A DNA stretch of 64,000 bases, taken from the NCBI RefSeq assembly GCF_026341775.1, contig NZ_JAPEOB010000001.1, positions 4,092,001 to 4,156,000 on the forward strand, read 5' to 3'. The notes under the pieces are model-generated. The model worked only from the letters and a program-made list of their open reading frames with translations. It ran no database searches and was not told the DNA's origin. Shown in pieces: positions 1 to 18,303 of the stretch; positions within the stretch are counted from its first letter, which is position 1; each line of letters starts with the position of its first letter. Source of the DNA: Streptomyces sp. NBC_00654 (GTDB lineage Bacteria > Actinomycetota > Actinomycetes > Streptomycetales > Streptomycetaceae). Made by a program: the position numbers and the translations under genes.

Positions 1-95
1 GAGGGTTCTCCTTGCCGTGCGGGTCGTACTGGTGTGGAGCGGTGGTGCGGTGAAGGGGGCGGTTCGTCCGGACCGGAGTCCGGGCGGCTGGCCGG
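1..95. other. Left-edge intergenic stretch
   Basis: No gene is visible. On the minus strand a GGAGAA sequence lies at about positions 4-9, where a ribosome binding site would sit for a minus-strand gene starting just left of the window. A short inverted repeat (CCGGAC at 68-73, GTCCGG at 78-83, 4-nt loop) lies just past the stop of the transporter gene and could be a weak terminator. Confidence 0.3.
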
Positions 96-1775
96 TCAGG
101 CCTTGAGGATCTGGGCCGAGTCACCGAGCGAACTGCCCGCGATCAGTCCGGCGCCGACCAGGTTCAGTTCCTCGTCGGCGGCGGGACCGCGCAGCCTGCG
201 GTAGCCGACCCGGACCGCGAGGGCGCCGAGGACCAGCCAGCAGGCCTGCGGGGTGAGGATGAGAAGACCGGTGGCGAGCATGACGCCCATCTGCCTGCGC
301 GTGCCGCCCAGCAGTTGGATGGCCGCGCCGGGGACGGCCCAGAGCAGCATGGTGCGCACCGCGTCCGGGTCGCTGAGCCCGCTCCTGATGGTGTCGGCGT
401 ACACCTTGGCGACCGGTGGGATGAGGCCCTGTCCGAAGTAGGAGCGCCAGGCGAGGGCGACGACGACCAGCGCCACGCCGAATCCGATCAGGGCGGCCAG
501 GAACTGCTGGCGGCGTCCTTCGCGTTCGTACGGGTCCCAGGGGCGGTGCTCGCGGCGCAGCAGCCAGCCCGCCTTGAGGTCGTACCCCATGTCGGCGAAG
601 GCAGGTCCGGTCGCGGAGACATATCCCACCAGGAGGGCGAGCGGTACGGACGGGATGCCGATGGCCAGCCCGAGAATGAGGAAGATCAGGGTGACGGCGA
701 AGGACGGGAACCAGCCGGACTGCATCGCGGCGAGACCGACGATCAGCTCGTGCACCAGGGCGGCGAACGCGGCGAACAGCACCCAGCCGACGATGCCGAG
801 CGGGCTCATCTCGCCGATCAGCCCGCCGAGCACGGCGAGGACCACCGCACCCGCGGTGAACAGCGCGTAGCCGCGGATGAGGGAGAGCCGCAGGGCGCGC
901 TCGTCCACGGTGTACGCGACGGTCGGGTCCTGCGCGGGGGCCGGTGCCGGGTCCGGTGCGCTCCGTGCCCTCTCGGCGCCCGACTTCCGTTTGCGCTCGC
1001 GACGGCCGATCAGCAGAACGACGGCCTGGCCCAGGGCCACGATTCCGGCGCCGACCATGACACCGTGCGGAATGAACCCGGCGCCCAGATCGGTGTGGAA
1101 GACATCGGGACTGTACTGGCGCAGCATCAGGCCGATACCGAACATCATCAGCGCCCAGACATTGCCCAGGAAGGCGACGCCGGCTGCGGAGAGCGGCAGG
1201 CTGAGAAGGGTTCCGGCCAGGCCGGCAGCGGTGCCACCGGCGAGGATGAGGGCGCGTCGGCCGCCCCGGTCGCCGGCCTTGATGGTCTCGGCGGCGGCCG
1301 TGCCGGGCGGCCAGGCCGCGTCGGCCGGCAGCAGCCGGGAGCCGAAGGCGCGGTAGAGCACCCAGGCGTCCACGAGCAGGCCGATGAAGGCTCCCGCGAG
1401 CATCGGCCAGACCAGGTCGGTGCGCCCGAAGACGTACGGGACGGCCACCGAGGTCAGCAGCGCGTTCGCGGAGGCGAAGGTGGCGGCGGAGATGGCGCTC
1501 TGGGCGAGGTTCTGCCGGTGCACGGAGCGCATCCGGCGCAGGAAGCCCAGCGGGATGCGGCCGATCAGCATGGCGACGAGGGCGCCGACCACCGAGGTGT
1601 TGGCCGAGATGCCTAGCTTGGAGACCAGATCGATGCCGATGACGGCGCCGACGGCGGCGAGCACCACCAGGATCACCAGCATCACGGGTTCCAGGACGCG
1701 CGGGTGCGCCCGGGTGTCGTCGGTGTCGGGGCCCGGCGGTGGGACAGGGTGCGGGGCGGAGACATGGTGCGCCAT
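96..1775 (-). CDS. OPT-family (oligopeptide transporter-type) membrane protein
   Basis: This is a 559-residue integral membrane protein with about a dozen hydrophobic segments along its length. A charged cytoplasmic-type linker rich in Arg, Lys, Pro and Ala lies near residues 245-275. The spacing of the helices and Gly/Pro-rich stretches such as GNVWALMMFGIGLM and FADMGYDLKAG fit the OPT superfamily, which moves peptides or metal-siderophore complexes across the membrane with a proton gradient. The start ATG at 1773-1775 (MAHH...) was chosen because sequence further upstream in this frame overlaps the IclR gene and has no membrane-protein character. It lies 185 nt downstream of the IclR gene on the same strand, so that regulator may control it. 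The substrate cannot be read from sequence. Confidence 0.75.
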   Translation of the reverse strand: MAHHVSAPHPVPPPGPDTDDTRAHPRVLEPVMLVILVVLAAVGAVIGIDLVSKLGISANTSVVGALVAMLIGRIPLGFLRRMRSVHRQNLAQSAISAATFASANALLTSVAVPYVFGRTDLVWPMLAGAFIGLLVDAWVLYRAFGSRLLPADAAWPPGTAAAETIKAGDRGGRRALILAGGTAAGLAGTLLSLPLSAAGVAFLGNVWALMMFGIGLMLRQYSPDVFHTDLGAGFIPHGVMVGAGIVALGQAVVLLIGRRERKRKSGAERARSAPDPAPAPAQDPTVAYTVDERALRLSLIRGYALFTAGAVVLAVLGGLIGEMSPLGIVGWVLFAAFAALVHELIVGLAAMQSGWFPSFAVTLIFLILGLAIGIPSVPLALLVGYVSATGPAFADMGYDLKAGWLLRREHRPWDPYEREGRRQQFLAALIGFGVALVVVALAWRSYFGQGLIPPVAKVYADTIRSGLSDPDAVRTMLLWAVPGAAIQLLGGTRRQMGVMLATGLLILTPQACWLVLGALAVRVGYRRLRGPAADEELNLVGAGLIAGSSLGDSAQILKA

Positions 1776-1960
1776 GGGGCACCCCCTTCGGTGAGCGTGG
1801 CAGGGGAGATCGTTCGGGGCGGGTCGGTCTCGCCGGTGGGTGCGCGCGGGCAGGGCCGGGCGCACCGTCGACGCGGGGAGGCCGCGCGTGGAGCGGTGAG
1901 GGCGTGCTGCTGGGGTGAGGTGCCGGGGCGGTGGGAGGGCCTGCGCGGATGTCTGCCGTT

Positions 1961-2758
1961 TCAGCCGCCGAGCGCGGCGGTGATCTCCGCCGCTCCGGCG
2001 CGTACCAGCGTCACGAGTGTCCCGGCGGCCCGGTCCACCCGGTGGGAGGGGCCGATGACCGTCAGGGAGGCGGGGACACCGTCGCCCTGGAAGACGGGTG
2101 CGGAGACCGCGGTCACGGCTTCGTCGTACTCGCCGTGGCTGATGCTGTATCCGTCGGCGCGGACCCGTGCGTAGCAGCTGAGCAGGGCGTCCAGGTCGGT
2201 GATGGTGCGGTCGTTGAAGCGGGTCAGCCCGGTGGGGCCGAACATCTGCCGGATCTCGCGCTCGGGGTGGTACGCGAAGATGGTGTGTCCGGAGGCCCCG
2301 GCGTGGCCGGGCATGACAGCGCCGATGATCGCCGTGTAGCGCACCGGTCCGGTACCGTCGACAGCGGCTTCGCAGCGGTAGCTGCCGCCGTGCGGGACAT
2401 TGAGGACGATGCTCTCCCCGGTCTCGCGGAGCAGCCGCGCGAGCACCGGCCGGGCCAGCGAGGAGAGTACTCCGCTGTGCTCGCTCACCCTCGCCAGGCG
2501 GGAGAGCGCGGGCCCCGGGCGGTAGCGCCGCGTGCGGTCGTCGCAGACGAGGAAGGCGCGCGCGGTCAGGGTGGTGAGCAGCCGCTGGACGACCGCCTTG
2601 TCCCAGCCGTGGTGACGGGCCAGCTCGCTGACGCCCCACTCGGGCCGTTGCTCGGTGAAGGTGAGCAGGACGAGCAGGGCCCGGTCCACGGTCTGGAGGA
2701 CCCCGGGGGCCTGGGGCCCCGCTCCGGCCGGGGCGGTGTCCGTGCCGTGCTCCGCCAT
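1961..2758 (-). CDS. IclR-family transcriptional regulator
   Basis: A 265-residue protein with the IclR layout. An N-terminal winged helix-turn-helix occupies roughly residues 18-80 (VDRALLVLLTF, then GVSELARHHGWDKAVVQRLL). A C-terminal GAF-like effector domain follows (SGHTIFAYHP, then ADGYSISHGEYDEAVTAVSAPVF). The start ATG is preceded by GGAGG at good spacing. The gene is upstream of the OPT transporter on the same strand, so local control of transport is plausible. A nearly perfect 11-bp inverted repeat 38-62 nt upstream is a candidate autoregulatory operator. The effector ligand is unknown. Confidence 0.85.
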   Translation of the reverse strand: MAEHGTDTAPAGAGPQAPGVLQTVDRALLVLLTFTEQRPEWGVSELARHHGWDKAVVQRLLTTLTARAFLVCDDRTRRYRPGPALSRLARVSEHSGVLSSLARPVLARLLRETGESIVLNVPHGGSYRCEAAVDGTGPVRYTAIIGAVMPGHAGASGHTIFAYHPEREIRQMFGPTGLTRFNDRTITDLDALLSCYARVRADGYSISHGEYDEAVTAVSAPVFQGDGVPASLTVIGPSHRVDRAAGTLVTLVRAGAAEITAALGG

Positions 2759-2795
2759 GGGCCGGCCTCCTGTTCACATCATCCGTATCGGTGCG

Positions 2796-2820
2796 GAAAA
2801 CGCAACGGCGTTGCGATTTC
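2796..2820. promoter_or_regulatory. Candidate IclR operator (25-bp inverted repeat)
   Basis: The arms GAAAACGCAAC and GTTGCGATTTC are separated by GGC and match at 10 of 11 positions as an inverted repeat; the inner six bases of each arm are perfect. It lies 38-62 nt upstream of the IclR start codon in an otherwise empty 243-bp gap. IclR proteins commonly autoregulate through such palindromes; the assignment to this protein is inference. Confidence 0.5.
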
Positions 2821-3001
2821 TGGCGAAAGGATGCGTGCACGGTCCACGGGTGTCAAGGGTTTGCCGCGAATTCGCCTCCGCTCCGTGAACGGGCAGGTCG
2901 GAGCCGGTGGCGCGGAGGCGGCGGAGCGGCGGCCCGGCAGCCGGAACGGTGCGGTCCGGTGCCGGTGCCGGACCTGGGCGGTACAGCGACGGTGCCGGGC
3001 C

Positions 3002-4363
3002 TCAGCCCTCGCGCACGCCGGGCGACAGCCGTACCGTCACCGTCTTGGGCCGCTGGTACTCCTGGAGCGCCAGCGCGCTCAGGTCCGTGCCGTGGCCGGA
3101 CGCGCCGCGCCCGCCGTGCGGAAGCTCCGCGGTCTGCACCAGATGACAGTTGAGCCAGGCCTCGCCCGCGTCGAGGCGCGCGGCGAGATCGAGCCCCGTA
3201 CCGAGACCGTTCGTCCAGACACTGGCCGCCAGGGCCTGCGGGACGCTGTTGGCCAGGCCGAGGGCCGCCTCCACCGTGTCCGCGTGCTGGACCGTGAGGA
3301 GCGGGCCGAAGACCTCCTCGGTGACCGTCGGGTCGTCGTCCGGGAGATCGGCCAGCACGAGGGCCGGACGCCAGTGGCCCCGCTCCTCGCCCGGCGGCAC
3401 GGCAAGCGCCGCGGGCAGGCGACGCCCCGCGGACGACGAGGCGACGAGGGCGTCGTACCGCGCCACCTGGTCCGGGTTGTTCAGCGGGCCGAAGTCGCGG
3501 CCCGCCAGCCGGGCGCCCATCGCCTCCGCCAGCCCGGCCACCGTCGGCTCGTAGTTCTCCGTCAGCGTGATCACCCGGGCCGGCGCGGCGCAGCTCTGCC
3601 CCGCGTTGTACGTGGCCGCCGCCGCGAGCGAGTCGTAGGTGTCCGCCGGGGCGTCCGGAAGCACGACGGCCGGAGCGTTGCCGCCCAGCTCCAGGCTGAT
3701 CCGGCGCGTCCCCGCCCGTGCCGCCACATCCAGGCCCGCCCGGCCGCTGCCCGTGAACGCGACCATGTCCACCGGGGATTCGACCAGCAGCCGGCCGGTG
3801 CGCCGGTCACCCGGAAGACACTGCACCACGCCCTCGCCCAGCGCCCGCGCGGCATGTTCCGCCAGCAGGCGCAGCGAGTCGGGGGTGCTCTCCGCCGGCT
3901 TCACCACCACCGTGTTGCCCGCGGCGAGTGCCGGGGCGCAGCGCCAGGCGGCCATCAGCAGCGGATAGTTCCACGGGACGATCACCCCGACCACGCCCAT
4001 CGGCTCCCAGCGCACCCAGCTCTCGTGCCCGGCCACCAGCCGCCCCGCCGCGGGGGCCGTCGAGGTCCGGGCCGCCGTCGCGTAGAAGCGGAACAGGTCC
4101 GCCACCTGTTCGACCTCGCCCGCACTCTCCGCGACCGGTTTGCCCGTCCCGGCCCGCTCCAGCGCCGCGTACCGCGCCGCCCCGTCCTCGATCAGCACCG
4201 CCAGCCGCTCCAGGCGCCGCGCCCGGTCCCTGGGTGTCAGGGCGCTCCACGCGCCGAGCGCCGTGCGGGCCGCCGCCACGGCCGCGGCCACCTCGGGCCC
4301 GCGCGAGAGGGGGGCGGTGCCGCGCGGGCGTCCCGTGCGAGGGTCGGTGAGTCCGGTGTTCAT
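3002..4363 (-). CDS. Aldehyde dehydrogenase family protein
   Basis: A 453-residue NAD(P)-dependent aldehyde dehydrogenase, slightly shorter than the usual 480-500. The cofactor-binding segment PWNYPLLMAAWRCAPALAAG and the VVKPAE motif are present. So are the general-base Glu (ISLELGGNAP) and the catalytic Cys (NAGQSCAAP). The C-terminal EVFGPLL motif is also intact. The usual FTGST is FTGSG here. The start ATG at 4361-4363 follows the asparagine-synthase-like gene by 35 nt on the same strand, with a weak GGAG upstream, so the two are probably co-transcribed. A long in-frame extension upstream overlaps that gene and is not real. The pair suggests oxidation of an aldehyde to an acid followed or preceded by amide formation; the substrate is unknown. 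Confidence 0.88.
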   Translation of the reverse strand: MNTGLTDPRTGRPRGTAPLSRGPEVAAAVAAARTALGAWSALTPRDRARRLERLAVLIEDGAARYAALERAGTGKPVAESAGEVEQVADLFRFYATAARTSTAPAAGRLVAGHESWVRWEPMGVVGVIVPWNYPLLMAAWRCAPALAAGNTVVVKPAESTPDSLRLLAEHAARALGEGVVQCLPGDRRTGRLLVESPVDMVAFTGSGRAGLDVAARAGTRRISLELGGNAPAVVLPDAPADTYDSLAAAATYNAGQSCAAPARVITLTENYEPTVAGLAEAMGARLAGRDFGPLNNPDQVARYDALVASSSAGRRLPAALAVPPGEERGHWRPALVLADLPDDDPTVTEEVFGPLLTVQHADTVEAALGLANSVPQALAASVWTNGLGTGLDLAARLDAGEAWLNCHLVQTAELPHGGRGASGHGTDLSALALQEYQRPKTVTVRLSPGVREG

Positions 4364-4398
4364 CGCTGCTCCGCTCGTCGCTTCCTGCCGCTCGTCCT

Positions 4399-6174
4399 TC
4401 ACAACTCGTACGACCGCAGCCACAGTTCCAGCGTGAGCACCAGCCAGAGCTTGCCGCCCTGACGGGGCAGGAGCGTGCCCTCGCCCTTCATCCACGTACG
4501 GATCGTGTCGGGGCGGAACAGTCCGCGGCGGGCGGACTGCCGGCTGAGCAGCAGATCGTTGCCCAGCTCGCGCAGCGGCCCCGTCAGCCACTGCTGCACC
4601 GGCACGCGCATCCCGCTCTTCGGGCGGTCCACGACGGTGTCCGGGAGGAGGTCGCGGACGGCCTCCTTGAGGATCCACTTCTCCGTCGAGCCACGGAGCT
4701 TGTACGCCGGCGGCGTCGCGAAGGCGTGGTCGATCACCCGGCGGTCGAACAGCGGCGCCCGGCCCTCGATGCCCCGGGAGGCCGTCAGGCGCTCCACCTT
4801 GGTCAGGATGTGATGCGCGCCCTTGGTCCGCAGATTGCAGTGCAGCAGCTGGTTGAGCAGATGACCCATCCGGTGCGGGCCGCCCGCCCCCGGGGTCAGA
4901 TACGGCTCGACGAACCGCTGGGGGGCCGGGGCGTCGCGCAACGCGTCCAGTGTCCCCGCGGTCAGCAGCACCGGGAGGTCCGTCCAGCACTTGCGGTACG
5001 AGCGCAGATAGGCCGTCGCCCGGTCCTCGTCCCAGGGGGCCCCGGGTTCGCGGTGCATCTCCTGCACCAGCATCGGGAGGTTCTTCGGACCGCCGAACAC
5101 GGGGTCGCCGCCCTCGCCGTTGAGCACCACCGAGGCGCCGTCGGCCGCCACGGCCTCCGCGAGCAGCAGGTTCGGGACCGTCAGGGGATCGCCCACCGGA
5201 CTGTCCAGGAGCGCGGCCGCCTCCGCGAGCCGTGAGGCGACCGTGTCCCCGGACACGTTCAGCACCCGGTGGCGGGTGTGGCAGTGGGCGGCCACCAGGC
5301 CCGAGTAGCCCAGTTCGTTGGGGAGTTCGTCGCCGAAGCTGATGGAGTACGTATGCACCGGATGGCTGTGGAGCTTCGCCGCCAGCGCGGTTACGAGGGA
5401 GCTGTCGATCCCGCCGGAGAGAAGGACCGCCGCCGGCTCGGCCCGCGGGAGCCTGTCGGCCGTCGCCCGCTCCAGGAGCGACCGCAGGGCCAGGACATGC
5501 CCCGCCGGATCCCGCGGCGCCGGCTCCGCGAGCTCCTCGCGGGGTTCCCAGTACACCGTCTCGACGGCCGTGCCGTCCCGGCCCAGCCGCAGCACCCGGC
5601 CGGGCAGGACCTCCCGGACACCTGTCAGGAGCGTCTCCTCGCCCGGCAGATAGGCGAACGTGAGGAACGAACGCACCGCGGACAGATTCACCGACGTGCC
5701 GAGCGCGGGCCAACGGCGCAGCGCCCGGAGCGAGGTGGAGGCCGCCCAGGCGCCCTCGGCGCGGGCGTAGAAGACCGTCCTCGCGCCCACCTGGTCGCGG
5801 ATCACGATCAGGTCCGTACCGTCCAGCACCGCCAGGACGAACATGCCTTCGGCGAGCGCCAGACCCGCTTCGCCGAGCCGCGCCCAGCAGCGCAGCAGGA
5901 GTTCGCCGTCGGAGCACCGGGCGGGTACGGGAGTCCCCTCCGCGTGCAGCGCGGCCAGGAGGTCCGGGCGGTTGTGGAGGGTGACCTCGCCGGCCGCCGT
6001 CAGACCGTACGCGGTGAACGGGCCCTCCGCACGGCCGGGTTCGCCGGAGATCAGTCCGAGATCGGCCCCCGGTACGTCCACGGGGTCCCGGCCGTCCCCT
6101 GCCGCACCCATCGCCTCGGTGTGCGTCCGGGCCTGCCCGGTCGTCGGGGCCAGACTGACACACAGACGAGCCAT
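4399..6174 (-). CDS. Asparagine-synthase-like amide-forming enzyme lacking Cys2
   Basis: A 591-residue protein of the class B asparagine synthetase superfamily. The N-terminal Ntn/glutaminase-type domain covers about residues 1-210, and the C-terminal ATP-pyrophosphatase domain carries the PP-loop LLSGGIDSSL. The nucleophilic Cys that must follow the initiator Met in true glutamine-dependent enzymes is missing: the protein begins MARLC, with Cys at position 5. Family members that lost it include beta-lactam synthetase, carbapenam synthetase and lasso-peptide cyclases, which adenylate a carboxylate and form an intramolecular amide, or use another nitrogen donor. No lasso precursor or RRE protein was seen nearby. 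It is followed 35 nt later by the aldehyde dehydrogenase. The reaction is unassigned. Confidence 0.8.
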   Translation of the reverse strand: MARLCVSLAPTTGQARTHTEAMGAAGDGRDPVDVPGADLGLISGEPGRAEGPFTAYGLTAAGEVTLHNRPDLLAALHAEGTPVPARCSDGELLLRCWARLGEAGLALAEGMFVLAVLDGTDLIVIRDQVGARTVFYARAEGAWAASTSLRALRRWPALGTSVNLSAVRSFLTFAYLPGEETLLTGVREVLPGRVLRLGRDGTAVETVYWEPREELAEPAPRDPAGHVLALRSLLERATADRLPRAEPAAVLLSGGIDSSLVTALAAKLHSHPVHTYSISFGDELPNELGYSGLVAAHCHTRHRVLNVSGDTVASRLAEAAALLDSPVGDPLTVPNLLLAEAVAADGASVVLNGEGGDPVFGGPKNLPMLVQEMHREPGAPWDEDRATAYLRSYRKCWTDLPVLLTAGTLDALRDAPAPQRFVEPYLTPGAGGPHRMGHLLNQLLHCNLRTKGAHHILTKVERLTASRGIEGRAPLFDRRVIDHAFATPPAYKLRGSTEKWILKEAVRDLLPDTVVDRPKSGMRVPVQQWLTGPLRELGNDLLLSRQSARRGLFRPDTIRTWMKGEGTLLPRQGGKLWLVLTLELWLRSYEL

Positions 6175-6287
6175 GGACGGCTCCTTTCCTCGGTGTTCCT
6201 GTTCCGTAGCGCTGCCCGCTGCCCGCAGCCCGCTGTCCTGCGGCCTCCGGTGTCGCCGCGGCCTCCGGTGTCGCGACGCGTCAAGGC

Positions 6288-6842
6288 TCAGCCGAAGTCG
6301 TCGTCGCTCCAGGCGTCCTCGCCGTCGTTCCAGCCCGCATCCCAGTCGTGGGACCCGCCGTCCCCCAAATCGCCGCTCCCGCCTCCGCCCGCGTCCCCGC
6401 CCGAGTCCCCCGAGGACGACTGGCTCTGCGCCTGCTGCTGGCGGAGCGCTTCCTCCTCCTGCGGGCTCATGCTCAGCGGCGGCAGCTGGGCGGCGGTGAT
6501 GGCGAGCCCCGCCACACCCAGGCCCGCGAGCATGGCGCCCGTCCTCCCGCCGAACGACGTCCGGTTGACCATCACCGTCTCACCGCGCCCCCACAGGGTG
6601 CGGCCGTACCCGATGTCCCTGGCGTACGTCACCGTCCCGTCGGCGAGGGTGCGTTTGATGATGCGGTCGCCGAGCAGTTCGTCGGTGCCCGAGGCGTTCC
6701 GGTTGTCGTGCCAGCGCACGAGGTGACGGTGGGACCGCTCGCGGTGACGCCACTCCTCGCGCCCGTCCTCGTAGCGCCGGTGGACGCTGCCGTCGGCGAG
6801 CAGTTCGTCGGAGTAGCCGATCTCTTGAGGCCGGATCATCAT
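6288..6842 (-). CDS. Hypothetical protein with acidic Gly/Ser-rich tail
   Basis: A 184-residue protein of unknown function. Residues 1-85 are polar and contain repeated short motifs around Asp-Gly (LADGSVHRRYEDGREEW, then LADGTVTYARDIG) that look like a beta-strand repeat. Residues about 100-120 form one hydrophobic stretch (GAMLAGLGVAGLAITA). The C-terminal 50 residues are Gln/Ser then Gly/Asp-rich and strongly acidic, ending SDDDFG. Two adjacent start codons are possible (6842 or 6839). It lies 93 nt downstream of the topoisomerase-like operon on the same strand and may be its last gene, but that is only suggested by position. Confidence 0.6.
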   Translation of the reverse strand: MMIRPQEIGYSDELLADGSVHRRYEDGREEWRHRERSHRHLVRWHDNRNASGTDELLGDRIIKRTLADGTVTYARDIGYGRTLWGRGETVMVNRTSFGGRTGAMLAGLGVAGLAITAAQLPPLSMSPQEEEALRQQQAQSQSSSGDSGGDAGGGGSGDLGDGGSHDWDAGWNDGEDAWSDDDFG

Positions 6843-6935
6843 GTGTTCCTCGGGTCTGCGGGGCGGTCGTGGACGCGGGATTCGGGGCTCGCCGGAACGG
6901 GGCGCCCGCGGTTCACGGGCGGGAGGAGCGGCGGT

Positions 6936-7856
6936 TCATGAGGCGGGCCAGGTCAGAAAGCCCGTGGTACGCAGCCCCCGCAGGTCCGTCCACAGGGAAT
7001 TCCGGGGCGGTCGCGGTCCCCGCGTGAGGCGCAGCACCGTACGCACCAGGCGGGGTGCCGGCACGGCCGCGACCTGCGCGAAGCGGCCCCGTGCCAGCCA
7101 CGCGGCCTCCTGGGGCCGCAGCGCCGGTGGCCAGGGCCCGCACGGCGCAGCCGGTGCCGGTCCGCGCCCGGTGGGAAGCCGCAGGGCGGCCGCGTGCCGG
7201 GGCACGAGGCCGATCGAGGAGACGCGGACGCCGGGGACGGGACCGAGCGCGGCCCTGATCCGTGCCGGAAGGCCGATGCCCCGCGGGCTCGCGTCGTGCA
7301 GGACATGCACCGTCGCGCCCTCGGCCCGCTCCAGAGCCGTGCGCAGATGCGGGGCGAGCGGAAGCGCGTCGGCCGCCGCGAGAACGAGGCACGCCGCCTC
7401 CAGGTGCACGTGGTTGGCCAGCAGCATCCGGGCGATCGAACGGTCCTGGCAGACCAGAACGCGGGGCAACCCGTAGGCGTACAGGTCGGGTTCACCGGTA
7501 CCCGGCGCGGCCGGGGGCCGGGGGAGTACCGGCGGCGCGGCCGGGACCGGCGGGAGCAGGCCCGCGACGGTCTCCCTGCCGCGCGCCTCCAGGGCGCGGG
7601 TGAACGCCGGCAGCCGCAGGGTCGGGGACGTCGTACGCGGGACACGGGTGAGCAGGGCCGCGGCCGGGCTCAGGACGCGGCATGTCTCGTAGTAGAGCTG
7701 CCGTTCCGTGAACCTGATGCCGCCGGGGCCCGCGGCGCGGGCGGCGGCCCCGGTGATGGCGAGATCGAGGAGACGGAGTCCGGGCCGGCGGCCGGTACGG
7801 GGAGCCGGGGCCGCGGAGGCCGCGCCTCCGGGAGCCTGGGGGCGTCGCGGAGTCAT
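6936..7856 (-). CDS. Topo VI A/Spo11-like paralogue C (no zinc ribbon)
   Basis: A 306-residue protein, third of three related genes. Near residues 49-62 it has FTERQLYYETCRVL, which resembles the catalytic-tyrosine motif (R-x-[IL]-Y-Y) of Spo11 and topoisomerase VI subunit A; Tyr55 and Tyr56 are the candidates. A TOPRIM-like core follows: strand VLVCQDRS near 133-140, then VLHDASPRG near 185-193, where the second acidic residue of the D-x-D pair is Ser190. It ends with GFLTWP, a C-terminal motif shared with the two upstream paralogues (GFLSWP, GFMTWP). Unlike them it lacks the zinc ribbon and membrane helices. The ATG overlaps the upstream stop as ATGA, indicating translational coupling. Function unknown; family placement is by motif only. 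Confidence 0.6.
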   Translation of the reverse strand: MTPRRPQAPGGAASAAPAPRTGRRPGLRLLDLAITGAAARAAGPGGIRFTERQLYYETCRVLSPAAALLTRVPRTTSPTLRLPAFTRALEARGRETVAGLLPPVPAAPPVLPRPPAAPGTGEPDLYAYGLPRVLVCQDRSIARMLLANHVHLEAACLVLAAADALPLAPHLRTALERAEGATVHVLHDASPRGIGLPARIRAALGPVPGVRVSSIGLVPRHAAALRLPTGRGPAPAAPCGPWPPALRPQEAAWLARGRFAQVAAVPAPRLVRTVLRLTRGPRPPRNSLWTDLRGLRTTGFLTWPAS

Positions 7857-9040
7857 GCGGAGCTGGGCCTTTCGTTCCTGGATGTGCCGCGGCCGGGCCG
7901 GCCGGTGCCCCGCTCCCGGGAGGGGCGCGGCACCTGGGGCCAGCTGAGGAAGCCGCTGGTGTCCGCGGTCCGGGGACCGGGTGGATCGGCGGCCAGAGCC
8001 CGTTCCACCGCCCGTACGACGACCGATTCGAGAAGGCGCGGCGGCACGGCGGCGACCGGGCTCCAGAACCCGTCGATGAGCCACGCGGTGTCCGCCCCGG
8101 ACAGACCCGCGACCGTGCGGAGCTGTTCCTCGTCGGCGGACCGGCAGGGCCGGGCGAGCCGTACAACACCGGCCCGGCCCCGGGCCGCCGAGACGGGGAG
8201 CCCCGCGTCCACCACGACGCGGCCGGGCTGCGCGGCCCGGAGCAGCGGTGCCAGCAGGACTCCGGACGGGTCGGCGTCGTGCAGGACCACCAGCGGCAGC
8301 GCGGTGCGGTACCCGGCGAGCCGGGCAAGGGCATCGGTCACCAGGGCGCCATGCCCCGTGGTTCCCTCCGGGGCGGTGGTGCGCAGGAGAACGGCACCCA
8401 GCCGGCCCGGAAGGTCATTGGCCGTGAGGAAGAGCGCCGCCACCGGGTCGGTGCACAGGATCACGGACGTGGGCCGGGTCACCGGCGCCGCCGTACGGGC
8501 ACGGCCCTTGCCACGCGGCCGGGGCAGCGGGTGCGCGTCGTCGAAGACGCCCCTCGGCAGGCTGCCGTACGCCGCTGACCAGGCGCCCGTCATCAGCCGG
8601 CGGAAGGTCTCCTCGGACGGGATCACCTGCGAGCGCGGCAGCTGACCGGGGCGATGGCGCATGACCGACGCGGCGACGAGGACCAGGAAGGCCGCGACTC
8701 CGGCGAAGAACGCGAGGTCACCGCCTGCCAGAACCGCGCACACCAGGAGCGCGGCGGCCACCGGCAGCGCCACCAGCCAGCGCAGCCCCGTCGGCACGCC
8801 CTCCGGCTCCCGCGCGCCCCAGGCGTAGTTGCGGGTACGGGACAGGTACCAGAGCTGGGTGAGGGTGACCTCCAGCCGGCCGTGATCGGTGGCGCGCTCG
8901 GCGATGCCCCGGATCCGGATGTCGTGCATGCCCGGACCGTGGACCGCGGGGTCGAGCGCGAAGCGCTTCCGGCAGCGCGGGCACACACGGCCCGCGCGCT
9001 CCTTGCGCTTGAGCGAGACGGCGCACCGCGGGCAGATCAC
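7853..9040 (-). CDS. Membrane-anchored topo VI A/Spo11-like paralogue B with zinc ribbon
   Basis: A 395-residue protein. It starts with a four-Cys zinc ribbon (Cys3, 6, 20, 23), then a QLWY motif with Tyr65. Two hydrophobic segments follow at about residues 86-104 and 109-126. A TOPRIM-like domain contains VVLHDADPSG (Asp255, Asp257, Gly260), the D-x-D-P-x-G pattern of topoisomerase VI A/Spo11. The GTG start at 9040 was chosen because it aligns residue for residue with the upstream paralogue and overlaps its stop codon (GTGA). The longer frame to 9211 reads into the neighbouring gene. The C-terminus has the shared GFLSWP motif followed by a basic tail. Whether it cuts or only binds DNA is not known. 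Confidence 0.62.
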   Translation of the reverse strand: MICPRCAVSLKRKERAGRVCPRCRKRFALDPAVHGPGMHDIRIRGIAERATDHGRLEVTLTQLWYLSRTRNYAWGAREPEGVPTGLRWLVALPVAAALLVCAVLAGGDLAFFAGVAAFLVLVAASVMRHRPGQLPRSQVIPSEETFRRLMTGAWSAAYGSLPRGVFDDAHPLPRPRGKGRARTAAPVTRPTSVILCTDPVAALFLTANDLPGRLGAVLLRTTAPEGTTGHGALVTDALARLAGYRTALPLVVLHDADPSGVLLAPLLRAAQPGRVVVDAGLPVSAARGRAGVVRLARPCRSADEEQLRTVAGLSGADTAWLIDGFWSPVAAVPPRLLESVVVRAVERALAADPPGPRTADTSGFLSWPQVPRPSRERGTGRPGRGTSRNERPSSA

Positions 9041-10092
9041 CGCCCACCCGGCCCGTCCGGGCCCGGCCAGGTCATGAAGCCCACGGACGCGGCGCGGCGC
9101 CGTTCCGGATCGGCGTCGCGGGTGAGCTGTTCGCAGACCCGTGAGACGACGGCCAGCAGCCGGGCCGGGGGCATCCCGATGAGCGGGAACCGCCAGCCCT
9201 TGCCCAGCCACTCCAGATCCCGCGCACTGTGTCCGCCGAGCGCGGCGAGCCGCGCCATGGTCGCCCGGTCGGGCCTGCCGCCCCGGTCGCGGTAGGGCAC
9301 CGCCCGGTCGAGACCGCGGACGGAACGCAGCGGCAGCCCGGCGTCGATCACGGTGCGCCGGTCCAGACTCTCGCGGACACGCCCGGCGAGGAGCTCACCG
9401 TGCGCGTCGGCGTCATGGAGCACGATCACCGGTCCCCGGGTGGGCAGGGCGTGGACCGTGCGGAGGTCCTCGGCGAGCGCGATCCCGTACCGGCCGGGCA
9501 GCCCGTCGGCGGCGAGGAACGCCAGGACGGAGCGGTCGGGACACAGGAGTACGGCCCGGGGCGGGGCACCGGAGAGCGGCCGCGTTCCGCCCGGGGAGGG
9601 AAGGGGCCGGTCGTCGTCGAGCACCCCCGGCGGCAGAGCGCCGTACACGCGCCGCCAGGGTGCGAGCGCCTCCGAGCGGAACGCCGCACGGCTCATGACG
9701 GGGATTCCCCGGCCCGCGCCGGCGGCCCGCGCGGAGGCGATGCCCGCGGAGACGAGCAGCAGGACGCCGCAGAGGACCGCGAGGAACACGGCCTCGACGA
9801 AGACGGCGAGGACACCGGCCACCAGGCCCACGAAGAGCGAGGTGCCCGCGCACCCCGGCGCGTACGTGCCCTCCTTGAGGCGTTTGCGCGAGAGCGCGTA
9901 CCACAGCTGGTCCGGCGCCACCGCGATGCTGCCGTCCCGCGTCACCTTGGCGAGGACCCTGCGTACCCGCAGATCGCTCAGCTGCAGGGAGTTGGTCTTG
10001 GGGTCGAGCGCGTAGGCGCGCTTGCAGCGGGAGCAGGTGTTCCTGGGGCGCTCCTTGCGGAGCAGGTTCTTCTCGCAGTGCGGACAGATCAC
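9037..10092 (-). CDS. Membrane-anchored topo VI A/Spo11-like paralogue A with zinc ribbon
   Basis: A 351-residue protein with the same plan as its downstream neighbour. It has a zinc ribbon (Cys3, 6, 20, 23), QLWY with Tyr65, and a hydrophobic region at about residues 84-120 long enough for one or two membrane helices. A TOPRIM-like core has VLLCPDRS near 181-188 and VIVLHDADAHG near 222-232 (Asp227, Asp229, Gly232). The shared GFMTWP motif is near the end. The GTG start overlaps the stop of the cupin gene (GTGA). The motif order Tyr-motif then D-x-D matches Spo11/TopVIA, but the inserted membrane segment is not part of the classical enzymes. A non-enzymatic or membrane-associated DNA-binding role is an alternative. 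Homology needs a profile search to confirm. Confidence 0.62.
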   Translation of the reverse strand: MICPHCEKNLLRKERPRNTCSRCKRAYALDPKTNSLQLSDLRVRRVLAKVTRDGSIAVAPDQLWYALSRKRLKEGTYAPGCAGTSLFVGLVAGVLAVFVEAVFLAVLCGVLLLVSAGIASARAAGAGRGIPVMSRAAFRSEALAPWRRVYGALPPGVLDDDRPLPSPGGTRPLSGAPPRAVLLCPDRSVLAFLAADGLPGRYGIALAEDLRTVHALPTRGPVIVLHDADAHGELLAGRVRESLDRRTVIDAGLPLRSVRGLDRAVPYRDRGGRPDRATMARLAALGGHSARDLEWLGKGWRFPLIGMPPARLLAVVSRVCEQLTRDADPERRRAASVGFMTWPGPDGPGGR

Positions 10093-10808
10093 CGGTGGGC
10101 CTCCAGAGCGGTCGCCATCCGGCGCAGTCGTGCGGCCAGACGTTCACGGACGGTGGTGGCGGCGATGCCGCGGTCCCGCTGGAGCCGCTCGATGTCGCGC
10201 AGGGCGGCGGCGAGTGCGCGGTAGTCGGTGATGGCGGCCACGGCCGGCCGGCCGGACGGAGGGGTGCCGCCCCCGGCGCGGCGCTCGGCCTCCCCGGCGG
10301 TGATGGCGTAGTCCTCGTGGTCGATCCCGTAGCCGGTGTTGGCCGCGAGGATGGTCAGCGGATCGGTGCCCCTGTTCGCGAAGGAGTGCGGCATCATCTC
10401 CGGGATCCGTATCAGCATCCCGGGAGTCAGCGGGACCTCGGTGACCAGGCCGCGGTCCCGGTCGTGGAGGCCGCAGGACGCGTGGCCGAGGCTGAGGACG
10501 AAGTGCTCGCCGCCGTGGGCGTGCGGGGTGAAGGCGCTGCGCGGTCCCACGACGCCGAGCTTGACGGTGGCGTTCGAGGGGCGCTCCGGCGAGGTCGCCG
10601 CGTCGCCCACCAGATAGCGGGCGAACTGCCCGTCGTCGATGAAGCGGAGGAACTCCCGCTCGGATCCGAGTTCACGCGTGCCGTCGCGGTCCGCCAGCCC
10701 GATGCTTCCGTCCGGCCGCAGGTGGTACAGCTCCACACCGCCGGGGAGCGCGTGCCACGCTCCGTGCGGCACGGCGTCGGATATGCCGTCCTGCGGCCGT
10801 CCGGTCAT
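10089..10808 (-). CDS. Cupin-domain protein, first gene of the topo-like operon
   Basis: A roughly 239-residue protein with one cupin barrel. Cupin motif 1 appears as HAHGGEHFVLSLG and motif 2 as GMLIRIPEMMPHSFAN, so the metal-ligand His/His/Glu/His set is intact. The C-terminal 50 residues are rich in Arg, Leu and Ala and probably helical. The ATG at 10808 was chosen because a G-run ribosome binding site precedes it; GTG 10874 and ATG 10853 are possible upstream starts. Its stop overlaps the GTG of the next gene, so it is the leading gene of a four-gene coupled operon. It might be a small-molecule sensor or an enzyme; the sequence does not decide. Confidence 0.7.
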   Translation of the reverse strand: MTGRPQDGISDAVPHGAWHALPGGVELYHLRPDGSIGLADRDGTRELGSEREFLRFIDDGQFARYLVGDAATSPERPSNATVKLGVVGPRSAFTPHAHGGEHFVLSLGHASCGLHDRDRGLVTEVPLTPGMLIRIPEMMPHSFANRGTDPLTILAANTGYGIDHEDYAITAGEAERRAGGGTPPSGRPAVAAITDYRALAAALRDIERLQRDRGIAATTVRERLAARLRRMATALEAHR

Positions 10809-11009
10809 CGCGGCTGCCCCCCCGTGGTCCCGATTCTCGCTGCGCAAGCGCATCGTATGGCGCCGGTTCACCACGGGGAGAGCCTTTGGGGTGACTGCCC
10901 GGCGAAGCGCGGGGAAACGGTGGGGAGGAGGGGAGGGACGAGGCGCGGCGGGTCGCCGGGCCCGGCCGGTACGGGGTGACCGGCGCGCCCGGGAGCTGTC
11001 CCGCCCTAG

Positions 11010-11651
11010 CGCCCCGCCTCACCGCACCTGCTGTCCGAGCCCGCGATCATCGCCGGCATGGCCCGTGCCGCCCTGCCCGGCAGTGCCACGCCCTGGGAGT
11101 GGTACATCGAGGACTACGACCGCATCCGCGACACGATGGCCCAGGTCCTCGACGGCTTCGAGGACTTCAACCGCCGCGTACGGCTGCCGCTCGGCTTCCG
11201 TATCAAGCAGCCCGCCCGCGAACTGGTCTTCCGCACCCACTCCGGCCGCGCCGAGTTCTCGGCCGCCGCCCTGCCCGACGTCGTCCCGGCGCCGGGGACG
11301 CTGGCCCTGGGCACGATGCGTTCCCACGACCAGTGGAACACCACCATCTACTCCGGCAACGACCGCTACCGGGGCATCAAGAACCTGCGCACCCTGGTCT
11401 TCATGAACCGGGACGACATGCGCGAACGCGGGATCTCGAAGTTCCAGCCCGTCGACATCACCAGTACCGCCAAGGACGGGAGCCATCGCTCCCTCGCGGG
11501 CTGTCTGGCCGTGCCCTACGACATCCCCCGCGGCTGCGCGGCCGGATACATGCCGGAGATGAACGTCCTGTGCGCGCTGTGCGACTACAGCACCCAGAGC
11601 GACCAGCCGCTCATGAAGCACGTCAAGGTCACCATCGCGCCCGCGGCATGA
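11010..11651 (+). pseudogene. C-terminal remnant of a YdeP/FdhF-type molybdopterin oxidoreductase
   Basis: The open frame from ATG 11058 encodes 197 residues that read as the C-terminal molybdopterin-dinucleotide-binding part of the large YdeP/FdhF family. Typical segments are TMRSHDQWNTTIYS, VDITSTAKDG, VPYDIPRGCAAGYMPEMN and STQSDQPLMKHVKVTI. Family members are usually about 700-800 residues. Family-like sequence continues upstream of the ATG without a start (LLSEPAIIAG, 11028-11057) back to an in-frame TAG at 11007-11009. So the first three quarters, including the Mo/Fe-S binding domains, are missing. This is a deletion remnant and should not be active. A short protein could still be made from ATG 11058. 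Confidence 0.8.
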
Positions 11652-12065
11652 GCGGGGGAGCCGACCTGACGGGCGGCGGTCCACGCTCCCGACGGAGTCG
11701 TGACCAGCGGCCCATGACGCCCCGGGTGCCGCAGTCCGCGCTTCCCCGGCTCGCCGGTTCGGTGGTCGTCGGGGTCGTCGGCCTGTCGTCGGTGCGCTGA
11801 CGCGGGGGCCGCTGGGCATTCCGGCCGGATGACGTCCGCGGTCGCCGCCGGCGGCCGGGGCGGGGCCGTACCACCGGGCGCCCGCGGCGCGTCGGGGAAC
11901 CCGTCTCCCGCACCGCGTGCACGGCGCCCCGGGCGACCCGGCGATGCCCCGTCTGCGTCGAATGCGCTCGTCCAGGTGGATTCGCCCCCTCGGGGGGTCC
12001 GCGGGGGCGAATTCCGGCGGGATGATGCCGCGACAGAATGGCCCGACTGTTGGGAGATCCCTGGT
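11652..12065. other. 414-bp intergenic region upstream of the P450
   Basis: No convincing gene. The region holds the end of the molybdopterin-oxidoreductase remnant, GC-rich sequence without protein character, and an inverted repeat at 11980-12012 close to the P450 start. The ribosome binding site GGGAG lies just before the P450 ATG. Confidence 0.5.
11980..12012. repeat. 10-bp perfect inverted repeat upstream of P450
   Basis: ATTCGCCCCC (11980-11989) and GGGGGCGAAT (12003-12012) are perfect reverse complements around a 13-nt loop, 54 nt before the P450 start. It could be an operator or a leader hairpin in the P450 transcript; no T-run follows, as is normal in this GC range. Confidence 0.5.
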
Positions 12066-13331
12066 ATGGCTGTGCACGAACCGGACTCCGGCGACCTCGA
12101 AGACGCACCCCTCGATCTGGCCGGCCAGGAACTGGTGCGGGATCCGTTCACCACCTACGCGCGCATCGGCGAACGCGGGCCGATGGTGCGCGGGTGCGTG
12201 CGCGGTGTCGACCCGATGTGGGTGGCCACCCGATACGACGACATCCGTACGCTCATGAGCGACCCGCGCTTCACGATCGACGCCGCGGCCGTCCCCGGCG
12301 CACCGGTGGCGCACCGCACCGAACAGACCTGGCAGGCCCGCGGTATGCACGCGGACAACGAGAGATATCTGCGCGCCGGGATCTTCGACGCGGACGGCGC
12401 CGACCACCGCCGCCTGCGCGGCCTGGTCACCGCCGCCTTCTCTCCCGGGCGCGTGGCCTCCCTGCGCCCCAGGATCGACACCATCGCCGCCCAGCTGCTG
12501 GACCGTCTGCCCGAGCGGGCCGAGGACGGCGCCGTCGACCTCGTCGAGCACTTCGCCCGGCCACTGCCCATCACCGTCATCTGCGAACTCATCGCCGTCC
12601 CCGAAGCCGACCGCGACCGCTGGCGTGCCCGCAGCACCACCCTGACAGCAGGCGTCTGCGGCGAGGAACTGGGCGACGCGCTCGCCGGCATGGTCGACGA
12701 CGCCCACACCCTCGTCGCGAGCCATACCGAGCACCCCGGGGACGACCTCATCTCCGACCTGCTCAGCCCCCACCACGACGACCGGCTGAGCATCGACGAA
12801 CTGGTCTCGCTCATCGTCAACCTCGTCGTCGCCGGGCACATCACCACCGTCAACCTCATCAGCAACGGTGTCGAAGCGCTTCTCAGCCATCCCGCCCAAC
12901 TCGCCCTGCTGCGCGGGGACCTCACCCTCATGCCGCACGCCGTCGACGAACTCATGCGCTACTGCGGTCCCGTCGTGCGCGCGCTGCCCCGCTACGCCAC
13001 CTGCGACACCACCCTCGGCAACACCCCGGTGCACGCCGGCGACGCCGTCCTGCCGATCGTGTCCGCGGCCAACCGGGACCCGGCCGCCTTCACCGACCCG
13101 TACCGCCTCGACATCACCCGCAACCGCCGCGGCCGCGAACCCCACCTCGGATTCGGCCACGGTGCCCATCGCTGCCTCGGAGCCCACCTCGCGCAGGAAG
13201 AGGCCGCCGGGGCCCTGAGCGCGCTGTTCAGCCGCTTCCCCGGCCTGCGGCTCGCCACCGCTCCCGAGGACCTGGAACGTGGCACCAACCCCGTCAACTG
13301 GCATCTGAAGGCCCTCCCCGTGTACCTGTGA
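12066..13331 (+). CDS. Cytochrome P450 (upstream of the regulator)
   Basis: A 421-residue soluble bacterial P450. The I-helix oxygen-activation motif is AGHITT; the Thr is present and the usual Glu/Asp is replaced by Ile. The K-helix ExxR is ELMR, and the haem-binding loop is FGHGAHRCLG with the cysteine ligand. The ATG at 12066 gives the normal N-terminal length and is preceded by GGGAG; longer forms to 11829 read low-complexity sequence. It faces the SARP regulator convergently and shares a hairpin terminator with it. It may belong to the glutarimide cluster as a second oxidase or be a neighbour; the P450 at 46123 is the better candidate for a core tailoring step. Confidence 0.9.
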   Translation: MAVHEPDSGDLEDAPLDLAGQELVRDPFTTYARIGERGPMVRGCVRGVDPMWVATRYDDIRTLMSDPRFTIDAAAVPGAPVAHRTEQTWQARGMHADNERYLRAGIFDADGADHRRLRGLVTAAFSPGRVASLRPRIDTIAAQLLDRLPERAEDGAVDLVEHFARPLPITVICELIAVPEADRDRWRARSTTLTAGVCGEELGDALAGMVDDAHTLVASHTEHPGDDLISDLLSPHHDDRLSIDELVSLIVNLVVAGHITTVNLISNGVEALLSHPAQLALLRGDLTLMPHAVDELMRYCGPVVRALPRYATCDTTLGNTPVHAGDAVLPIVSAANRDPAAFTDPYRLDITRNRRGREPHLGFGHGAHRCLGAHLAQEEAAGALSALFSRFPGLRLATAPEDLERGTNPVNWHLKALPVYL

Positions 13332-13366
13332 CCTGGCCGGGGGCATGAGGGCCGCCCCGCAGCGAA

Positions 13367-13402
13367 AGGCGCCTGCCGGGTGGAAAACCTGGTCAGGCGC
13401 CT
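13367..13402. terminator. Bidirectional hairpin between P450 and SARP genes
   Basis: AGGCGCCTG (13367-13375) and CAGGCGCCT (13394-13402) form a perfect 9-bp stem that extends partly inward (CGGGT with ACCTG). It sits between two convergent stop codons and needs no T-run to act in high-GC actinobacteria. Confidence 0.65.
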
Positions 13403-13490
13403 CTTCCCGCATGTGCGGAGGCTCTTGGCCTCCGCGCGGCAGATGTGTGTCCCGTGGGGGCGGGCCTCCCTCGCGGCACCGGGGCGCCAC

Positions 13491-16400
13491 TCACTCCCGG
13501 AGCACCGGCTCGGTCGTGTCCTTGCCCAGGAGCTCGTGGAGCAGTTGCGTGGCGGGCAGCGCGGAGTGGAAGTACACGTACTCCCGCCGGTGCTCGACCA
13601 CGGCGACCATCGTGCGCAGGGTGTCCACCGCGTCCTCCCGCTGCCCGGCACGGTGCTGGGCCTGGGCCAGCAGCCCCAGATGGAGGGGCAGACGTATGTG
13701 GGTCCGGGACAGCCGCAGTTCGGCCAGCGCGTTCTTCATCCCGGGGATCCCCTCCCGCCTGCCGCCGTGCGCGAGTGCCCAGCCCAGCGGCAGGTGAAGC
13801 ATCGCCTTCCAGTAGTACAGCCCGTGCTCGACGGCCAGCCGGACCCCTTCGGTGCCCGAGGACCGGGCCGTCTCCACATCGCCCTCCCAGGCGGCCACGA
13901 CCGCGTCGACATAGAGGGCCTGGGCACGGTCCCAGGGCTTGCTGTCGTGCTGGGTCAGCCTCAGCAGGCGCCGGCGCTGTTCGGCCGCCGCCGCACGGTC
14001 CTGCAGCAGCCAGCGGGCGAAGACGTCGTAGCAGCGGAAGTAGACACGGGGATCGGAGCGGTACACGCCGTCCGGCAGCCGGCCCTCACGCGCGAGCCGG
14101 TCGGCCAGCCCGACACCGTGCTCCAGCTCCTTCAGCGCGTCGGGCAACAGGCCGCGGACGAAGAGCGCCGTACTCTCGCCGAACGACGCGCCCAGCCGCG
14201 CCGTCGGGCCGCCGGTGCGCTCGGCGATGTTCCTGAGCAGGGCGGACAGCTGCCGTGACTCGTCGTAGCACCCGCGGACGAGGAGCGATGCCCCCAGCAT
14301 CGACAGGACCGCCGGGTCGTCGGACGTCTGAGGGGTCGGGAGAAGGGCGTGCCCCCGGGCGATCTCCGCCTCGGCCTCGGCATCACCGAATCCCCGGACC
14401 TGGCCCAGCAGACGGCCCAGCTCCAGGTGGAGGCGCTGCTCCAGGTCGCGGGCGTCCGTGTCGCCGCGCAGCGATCCCGCCATCCCGACCGCACGGCGCA
14501 GCCACAGCTCGCGTTCCCCGGAGGCGAGGCGGGACTCCGCGTTCTCGGCGGCGCGCAGCAGCCAGGGGAGCACCCGCTTCGCCGGCATGGCGTCCTTGCC
14601 GTGCCATGCGTGGTGGGCGACGCGGCCGATCTCCTCCGGAGCGCTCTCCGCGTGGACGTGCGAGGACAGCGCGTCGGCGTACCGGGCGTGCATCTGGTGG
14701 CGCTCCTCGTCCGTCAGCTCGGCGGTGAGCACCTCCTGCGCCTGAGGAGGAGCGAGGCGGAGCCGTCCGGTGCGCTGCCGGTCGGGGGCGAGCAGGCCGT
14801 AGCGGATCGCCGACTCCACGACCGCGACGGCCGAATTGCCGCCGGTGGCACGGCAGAGCGGTTCGAGTTCGCTGTCGGGTGCGACGACCGCGCACAGCCT
14901 CAGCAGCCGCAGGACCGGCTCCGGCAGCATGGCGAACTCCTGGCGGAGGACCTTGCGCGCGCACGTCACTATGAGGCCGAGGAGTTCGTCGGTGCCGCGC
15001 GGATCACGCAGGTCCCGGGCGTCACTGAGAAGCGAGAGCATCTGGAGGACGAAGTAGGGACTGCCCGTGCTCTGGCGGTGCAGCGCGTCGATGACCCGCT
15101 CGTCGACACCCGGCCCGGCGTGCGCGTCGACCAGTGTGGCGACATCCTGCCGGGCCAGTCCGGCGAGCCGCAGGATGTCCGCGTTGGGGCCCTTGAGCAC
15201 CTCGGTCATCACCCGGAACCGTGAGGCATCGGGCCAGGCCTCCAGGTCCCAGCCGGTCAGCACGATGCTGAGGGAATGCCCCTGGCGGCGGGTGCTCAGC
15301 AGACGCAGCAGGTCCAGCGATACGGCATCCGCCCAGTGCACGTCCTCCAGGAGCAGGACCAGCGGCCGCTGCGCGGCCAGCGCGAACAGGACTTCGCAGA
15401 GCGCGTCATGGGTGCGGAAGGAGTCGTGGGAGCTGTCCGGATCACGGTCGCCCCCGCCCGGCGGCGCGCCCTGTCCGCCGGGCAGGAGAGGGGCCAGTGA
15501 GGAGCCGAAGGGCGCGGCGGCGGCCCGGAACTCATCGGGCCGGGCCGCCGCCAGCCGGCGCAGCACCTGGGTCCACAGCCAGTACGGCGGGACTCCCTCA
15601 CCGCGGAAACAGCTGCTCCGGATCGTTTCGATGTTCTCGTCCAGGTGCTGGAGACGCTGGACCAGCTCCATCACCAGATGCGTCTTGCCGAGCCCGGAGG
15701 AGCCGAACACACAGGCCAGATGTCCACGGCCGGTCGCCGAACCGGATGTCGCGGCGACCAGACGCCTCAACTCCCTTTCGCGGCCCGTCAGCTGCGGGGG
15801 CATCGCCGGTTCGCCGAAGGTGAGGCCGGGCACCAGGGACAGCGTCTGTGCCGTACGGCCGGGATCCTTCGGCGTCTCCATGGCGCGCACGGCGGGTTCA
15901 CCCGCCGGTGGGGACACCCCGGTCACCGGTGGGGCCCCGGCCGGGAGCGTCGTCCGTTCGGGCAGCGGGAACGCGGTGACCCTGTTCAGCACGTGCTCGC
16001 CCGCCGGGGGGAGCGCCCGGTGGCCGCCGAGTTCCTGCCTGAGCAGAGCGGTGTGGAGCTGCTGGAGTTCGGCGGTCGTGTCCACGCCGTACTCCTCGAC
16101 CAGATAGTTCCGCGTCCACTCGTACACCTCCAGCGCCTCCGCCTGACGGCCCGACCGGAACAGCGCGGTCATGAGATGGCCCACCAGGCGCTCCCGCGTC
16201 GGATGCTGACGCACCTCGCGTTCCAGTTCGGTGACCACCTCGGCGGTCTTCCCCAGGACGAGTCCGGCCTCGGCGGAGGCCTCCAGCGCGGTGAGCCGGA
16301 CCTGCTCCAGGCGGGTGCTCTCGTCGGCTAGCGGCTGGTGGACGGTGAACTCCGCGTACGGGGAGCCGCGCCACAGGGCGAGCGCCCGGGTGAGCCGGTC

Positions 16401-18027: not shown

Positions 18028-18030
18028 GAC

Positions 18031-18288: not shown

Positions 18289-18303
18289 GCAAGGAGACCC
18301 CGC

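Follow-up and report, generated by a model that had tools for sequence, protein, structure and literature searches.

The 64,000-nucleotide stretch of DNA analysed here (the window) corresponds to positions 4,092,001 to 4,156,000 of contig NZ_JAPEOB010000001.1 of Streptomyces sp. NBC_00654 and carries, on the minus strand, an operon in which a gene for a cupin-domain protein is followed by three genes for related proteins, here called D1, D2 and D3 (10808-6936). Neighbouring frames share exactly 4 nt at the three junctions (10089-10092 for cupin/D1, 9037-9040 for D1/D2 and 7853-7856 for D2/D3). The original prediction, which was made from the sequence alone, described these four genes as an operon of Spo11/topoisomerase VI A-like paralogues behind a cupin; the four genes are as described, but the operon does not end at D3, since the same strand continues with P5 (6288-6842), an asparagine-synthetase-like (AsnB-like) gene (4399-6174) and an aldehyde dehydrogenase (ALDH) gene (3002 to about 4363). 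The operon is real and conserved, and consists of an enzyme of a known kind together with new families (D1/D2, D3 and P5); no description of it was found in the literature searched, the supplementary files and most subscription papers being outside coverage. Its core is formed by D1, D3, P5 and the AsnB-like protein, with the cupin present and D2 and the ALDH often so.

D1 (351 amino acids, 9037-10092) comprises a predicted zinc ribbon, a QLWY region (Tyr65), a hydrophobic stretch and a TOPRIM-like C-terminal domain. Its four-cysteine motif (Cys3, 6, 20 and 23; 10024-10086) is invariant in 14/14 D1 rows of the alignment and is also seen in a cyanobacterial homologue; the HDAD motif (H226-D229, 9406-9417) has a second Asp that varies across loci. 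D2 (395 amino acids, 7853-9040) has the four cysteines at identical positions (8972-9034, invariant in 13/13 D2 rows) and again QLWY at Tyr65. D3 (306 amino acids, 6936-7856) is without the zinc ribbon and shows FTERQLYY, with the RQLYY motif (R52-Y56, 7689-7703) ending at Tyr56, and HDAS (H187-S190, 7287-7298), in which the second TOPRIM Asp is absent. The proteins end in GFMTWP, GFLSWP and GFLTWP, respectively. The three Tyr positions, the cysteines, the HDAD and HDAS motifs and the common ending had all been read correctly beforehand, as had the hydrophobic segments of the two cysteine-bearing paralogues, for which a hydropathy analysis gave one strong stretch each; D1 and D2 are on this ground probably membrane-anchored. 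No convincing family was assigned to D1, D2 or D3 (nothing within the curated Pfam and NCBIfam cut-offs, no PADLOC match and no PHROGs match at E < 0.2).

The identity between D1 and D2 was 40% (35% by tblastn), and D3 matched the D1/D2 profile with an hhalign probability of 99.7 (E 3e-26); judged by these sequence and profile comparisons, the three are paralogues. In a tree of 74 of the 85 rows, at least one of which (locus L014) was mislabelled, D3 was split from D1/D2 with support of 100/100, and D1 and D2 formed two Streptomyces clades (99/93 and 99/96), D2 being a duplicate of D1 within Streptomyces. A single D1-like protein occurs in the outgroups and in L065-L067, so the older set was probably D1 plus D3, with D2 added by tandem duplication. 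In L061 and L062 the order is changed to D1, cupin and a short D2 (called frames of 185 and 144 amino acids), which may be decaying or may have been cut short by the gene caller.

The AsnB-like protein (591 amino acids; Asn_synthase, E 1.4e-76) retains SGGxDSS and K(S/R)GM in 33/33 rows. In the window it begins with MARLC instead of Met-Cys-Gly and thus has no catalytic N-terminal Cys at position 2; its score against TIGR01536, the glutamine-hydrolysing asparagine synthetase, was 221.6 bits, below the cut-off of 267.1. Among the 20 rows with a recognised MxR start, 17 have Cys at position 5 (MARLC, MARFC, MSRWC) and three have Val or Ser. In 8/8 genomes compared, none of the other six proteins was as well conserved as this one (76-90%), which led the cupin or the ALDH by 1-3 points in seven of the eight.

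P5 (184 amino acids) has a conserved, repeat-like N-terminal part, a moderately hydrophobic stretch (hydropathy peak of 1.62 against a threshold of 1.6) and an acidic linker rich in Gln, Ser, Gly and Asp. The C-terminus is DDDFG (6291-6305) in 28/28 Streptomyces rows and DDFG or GDFG in the outgroups. Within the 31 loci that were clustered, P5 adjoins AsnB in 28/28 loci that hold it, and it does so in the outgroup loci L086 and L087 as well. This adjacency, the conserved end and the position of the hydrophobic stretch ahead of the acidic linker make P5 the best candidate for a substrate of the ligase.

The cupin (239 amino acids, 10089-10808) matched Pfam Cupin_2 with an E-value of 4.4e-5, below the curated cut-off, and shares 70-88% identity with its counterparts in orthologous loci. 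Of the clustered loci, 27 have a cupin of this kind; in L086 a different protein with weak cupin matches stands in its stead. Further proteins that look cupin-like by eye lie beside the operon in two arrangements (L065:11711-12430, L066:8395-9114, L067:8457-9185 and L087:2311-3066), the one from L065 yielding no Pfam or NCBIfam match; this family possibly replaces the usual cupin. That such proteins stand in for the cupin suggests a need for a cupin function. Regarding the ALDH (Aldedh, E 1.9e-106; 3002-4363 with the start inferred, the stretch 3002-4348 having been searched), the gene was called beside AsnB in 17/28 AsnB-holding loci, which is an undercount, as tblastn added L070. It was not found in L060 by tblastn and was not called in L062 and L065-L067; L014, L015, L018 and L021 show no gene past AsnB, and the gene caller missed some genes, the ALDH of L070 being an example. 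Where found (7 genomes), the ALDH is 74-89% identical, about as conserved as the cupin, and its best NCBIfam score, below the cut-off, was to aminobutyraldehyde dehydrogenase.

A synteny survey, which had been proposed together with the original prediction, found the set in further genomes. Among 61 genomes (the window genome and relatives), D1 was detected in seven, and the same seven have the AsnB-like protein (E up to 1e-60, at most 21 AsnB candidates scored). Among 392 Streptomyces genomes, a D3 match was obtained in 24 and an AsnB-like protein (E up to 1e-80, three candidates scored per genome) in 23, i.e., in all genomes with a convincing D3 (about 6%); the 24th D3 match (G397, 46 residues, E 8.8e-4) was treated as chance. 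The loci are partly redundant (L017 and L064 have identical D rows, L068 and L069 both come from G028, on separate contigs, and L073 and L106 overlap). Flanking genes are shared by L053-L056, L070 and L071 and mostly not by the other loci, which leaves the operon itself as the conserved unit. Some copies, noted at L057:9604-13900 and L074:7723-12030, lie near chromosome ends (for example G177 at 8.33 of 8.38 Mb and G031 at 8.37 of 8.42 Mb), which fits the patchy distribution.

Relatives within the class were found in 7/394 genomes at E up to 0.01, including three Streptomyces and the marginal G435; those outside Streptomyces were G436, G549 and G629. The match in G435 (E 0.004) was treated as chance. 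G629 holds D3, P5, AsnB and a cupin, G436 holds D1, D3 (by profile), P5 and AsnB, and G549 holds D1, D3 and P5, after which the contig ends. In another class 4/396 genomes matched, one of them marginally (G531, E 3.8e-4, likewise treated as chance); G1085 is among the four, and its contig (L113) is 88% identical at the DNA level to that of G549 (L088) over 4,669 bases. The G1085 contig may be misplaced or may reflect a recent transfer, and adds little to the reach of the operon.

Beyond the actinobacteria, a D3 tblastn match (E 0.04) reached a plasmid of Gloeothece verrucosa PCC 7822. The protein concerned, P0006, has the plan of D1 (CxxC-CxxC, QLLY, hydrophobic stretches, a VCQS region, HNANSRG, LSPRQV and EEINWLEAG), and in the reverse search it returned the D3 of the window genome at E 2.5e-10 and the N-terminal part of D1 at E 0.02. 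Beside it lie two AsnB-like genes, one of which shares 41% identity with the AsnB of Streptomyces; among the remaining 11 records retrieved with an E-value of 1e-40 or better, none exceeds 30%. The second, more diverged AsnB-like gene and P0007, a protein resembling diaminopimelate/ornithine decarboxylases with scores below the cut-offs, come immediately before the D1-like gene, in the same orientation (L105:5306-8266). The cross-phylum link rests on this single Gloeothece locus.

The amine- and aldehyde-related enzymes beside AsnB, namely the aminobutyraldehyde-type ALDH and the cyanobacterial P0007, suit an operon for a small molecule, in which the cupin, the ALDH (in the cyanobacterium a pyridoxal phosphate-dependent decarboxylase) and the AsnB-like ligase would make an amide or lactam while the D proteins and P5 would anchor, sense or export. 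Operons of cupins and peptide ligases, some with an asparagine-synthetase-like PP-loop ATPase, have been predicted (PMC2922099), and the conservation and undercounting of the ALDH point the same way. Both enzyme assignments score below their cut-offs, however, the ALDH is not constant, and the decarboxylase was seen once. No constant carrier protein, transporter or nonribosomal peptide synthetase occurs among the clustered neighbours, and the tailoring enzymes are less regularly present than the D proteins, P5 and AsnB. Such a pathway is a possible but rather doubtful explanation.

The original prediction had placed the emphasis on DNA, proposing a DNA-processing or DNA-sensing system on the pattern of Spo11/TopVIA enzymes, which pair a Tyr with a D-x-D TOPRIM. 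The Tyr is indeed mostly conserved: in D3 it is kept in 26/27 rows (RQLYY, with RQLYF in one), and in D1/D2 in 50 of the 54 rows that have a residue at that position. The metal site is not. In the final counts (27 D3 and 56 D1/D2 rows, 83 in all), D3 has D-x-S/G in 27/27 rows (Ser 26/27, Gly 1/27), both Asp in 0/27 and Glu in 4/27; D1/D2 have Glu in 0/56 and both Asp in 30/56, and the cyanobacterial homologue reads HNAN in place of HDAD. The Asp pair, whose lack of conservation the original prediction had named as a ground for its own refutation, is thus incomplete throughout D3 and kept in about half of the D1/D2 rows, which goes half-way towards that refutation. Tyr, Glu, Asp and Asp occur together in 0/83 rows, which makes cleavage of DNA by the D proteins unlikely on sequence grounds; with this broken set and an AsnB-like ligase as the constant partner, the proposed DNA processing is also unlikely, and the stress laid on DNA chemistry was probably misplaced.

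A membrane-tethered DNA-breaking or DNA-sensing machine of a defence-like kind could still be assembled from different subunits, the Arg/Tyr winged-helix half coming from D3 and the D-x-D TOPRIM half from D1/D2, to give a hybrid site as in topoisomerase VI. The spacing of Arg and Tyr in RQLYY, the 30/56 rows with both Asp and the patchy distribution (23-24/392 genomes) are compatible with it, and in topoisomerase VI the Tyr and the metal site of one active centre are described as coming from different monomers. By motif counts, such a hybrid could form in 21/34 loci. Against it, no D-x-D copy is present in 13/34 loci, of which at least five hold incomplete D sets, and Glu is missing from all D1/D2 rows; in MksG, E236A and D279A are reported to impair cleavage drastically. 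PADLOC 2023 gave 0 families at E up to 1 for the cupin, D1, D2, D3 and P5 (AsnB and ALDH were not scanned), no phage match was found for D3 or D1 and no viral-contig match for D3 or P5, and the flanks of 11 loci did not look defence-like by eye (first 60 residues, no family search). This machine is considered improbable.

The D proteins are nevertheless fairly likely to be related to TOPRIM proteins of the Spo11/JetD type. PF21180 (TopVIA) matched 0/98 genomes of the class and JetD was found in 13/98, hence JetD was used for the profile comparison. A D1 profile that included the cyanobacterial homologue matched JetD with a score of 35.2 (P 0.00095), in register at the D-x-D strand over 67 columns; the maximum for 300 shuffled JetD profiles was 26.1, the reversed profile gave 19.9, and three unrelated families reached at most 21.1. 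No other of the six D profiles scored as well, and shuffles were made for this profile only. The Spo11/TOPRIM likeness claimed at the outset is thus backed by a weak in-register match and by the Arg-x3-Tyr spacing of D3; the other D profiles were weaker or gave no match, and in PDB sequence searches the A3, A8 and A5 profiles retrieved no TOPRIM protein. With E-values of up to 1 allowed, the Pfam scan gave no JetD_C match.

The reading preferred here, which is tentative, is a conserved amide-ligase module in which an AsnB-type enzyme works with non-catalytic scaffolds of a Spo11/JetD-like kind and P5 is the likeliest substrate. The AsnB-like enzyme, its ATP site being kept, would adenylate a carboxylate and then join it to an amine that is probably not derived from glutamine; the ligase would be offered the acidic tail of P5, whose C-terminus is conserved. 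The catalytically degenerate D1/D2 and D3 would form a membrane-anchored scaffold or sensor for substrate and ligase, and the cupin and the dehydrogenase would supply or tailor the small partner.

Several observations weigh against this interpretation. Since an operon passes on as a unit, co-occurrence of its genes shows linkage more than joint action. The putative role of P5 is suggested by position and conservation; D3, a protein taken as soluble, has a hydrophobic stretch at least as strong as that of P5, and no P5 match was found on the Gloeothece plasmid. Cys5 of AsnB could possibly belong to a glutaminase that is freed by removal of a propeptide. Metal binding is not lost in every locus, since some D protein with D-x-D is present in 21/34 loci when two motif counts are combined (20/34 each, differing in one locus each, L062 and L071), the 13/34 loci with none including the outgroups. 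As to the putative TOPRIM assignment, finally, the other five D profiles matched JetD with P values of 0.47, 0.012, 0.0064, 0.4 and 0.059, those of the D3-only profiles (0.47 and 0.4) amounting to no match.

Domains such as a zinc ribbon, a winged helix and a TOPRIM-like fold are typical of nucleic-acid binders, and PP-loop ligases act on nucleotides. The ligase module could hence serve to modify nucleic acid, with the Spo11-like proteins binding DNA or RNA and the AsnB-like ligase adding an amine to a base oxidised by the cupin and the dehydrogenase; ALDH and ligase would suit the formation of a carboxyl group and its subsequent amidation. No constant base-generating or methyltransferase gene was seen among the clustered neighbours, however, the ALDH is variable, and D1 and D2 carry strong hydrophobic stretches, which do not fit, so that this variant appears improbable. 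A broader proposal leaves the target open to protein or nucleic acid: a modifying machine of a kind not yet described, in which an AsnB-type ligase works on a membrane-anchored scaffold of the Spo11/JetD type that was turned from DNA breakage to binding, conserved across actinobacteria and a cyanobacterium, P5 being the dedicated substrate in the former. In this full form it is speculative and on balance unlikely. Should the preferred amide-ligase reading hold, an amide-ligase system would have recruited Spo11/topoisomerase VI/JetD-type proteins whose metal site is broken, a use of this DNA-cleaving family not found in the literature searched, and the nameless families D1/D2, D3 and P5 would gain a common testable context: a single enzyme, a candidate substrate for it, and Streptomyces genomes that naturally have or lack the operon.

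Upstream of the operon, a frame of 197 amino acids (11058-11651) matches positions 545-743 only of the 744-position FdhF/YdeP oxidoreductase model and is, given this confinement, probably the remnant of a longer gene. Next to the operon lies a polyketide cluster (16930-64000). It has a separate acyltransferase-like gene (16930-18027), an acyl carrier protein-like gene (18031-18288), an AsnB that is genuine and begins with MCG (18304-20376), and an exceptionally long polyketide synthase frame; this assignment is based on the translated frames overlapping 1-20000, and the arrangement resembles glutarimide trans-acyltransferase polyketide clusters.

Compared with known systems, the D proteins share with Spo11 the order of a Tyr region followed by a TOPRIM-like region. 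R52 and Y56 of D3 have the Arg-x3-Tyr spacing of R131 and Y135 (given for Spo11 in PMC11746154), 51 residues separate the position equivalent to the Glu from the first Asp in D3, against 55 in Spo11 (E233-D288), and the Glu of the 4/27 D3 rows stands at the E233 position. They differ from Spo11 and topoisomerase VI A by the four-cysteine motif and hydrophobic stretch of D1/D2, and neither the Pfam scan nor the PDB sequence searches gave a topoisomerase VI or Spo11 match; no Top6B-like partner was recognised among the conserved neighbours. In JetD/MksG of the Wadjet system Glu and D-x-D are invariant (10/10 JetD rows), whereas the set is incomplete in the D proteins; JetA, JetB and JetC were not recognised among the neighbours common to several loci, no search aimed at them having been made. 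Regarding the ligase, the best NCBIfam scores of the AsnB-like protein were those for TIGR03104, the N-acetylglutaminylglutamine amidotransferase (243 bits, cut-off 570), and TIGR03108, the XrtA/PEP-CTERM amidotransferase (235, cut-off 817); it stayed far below the lasso peptide cyclase model NF033535 (112.4 bits, cut-off 525) and the albusnodin/ikarugamycin cyclase (95 bits, cut-off 300), and no peptidase or precursor-recognition gene was recognised by eye among the conserved neighbours. Ligases without the Met-Cys-Gly start can join carboxylate and amine independently of glutamine, and beta-lactam and carbapenam synthetases are glutaminase-less ligases of the AsnB type. With such glutaminase-less enzymes, for which the lasso peptide cyclase is an example, the AsnB-like protein shares the Asn_synthase domain, the SGGxDSS motif and the absence of a Met-Cys-Gly start.

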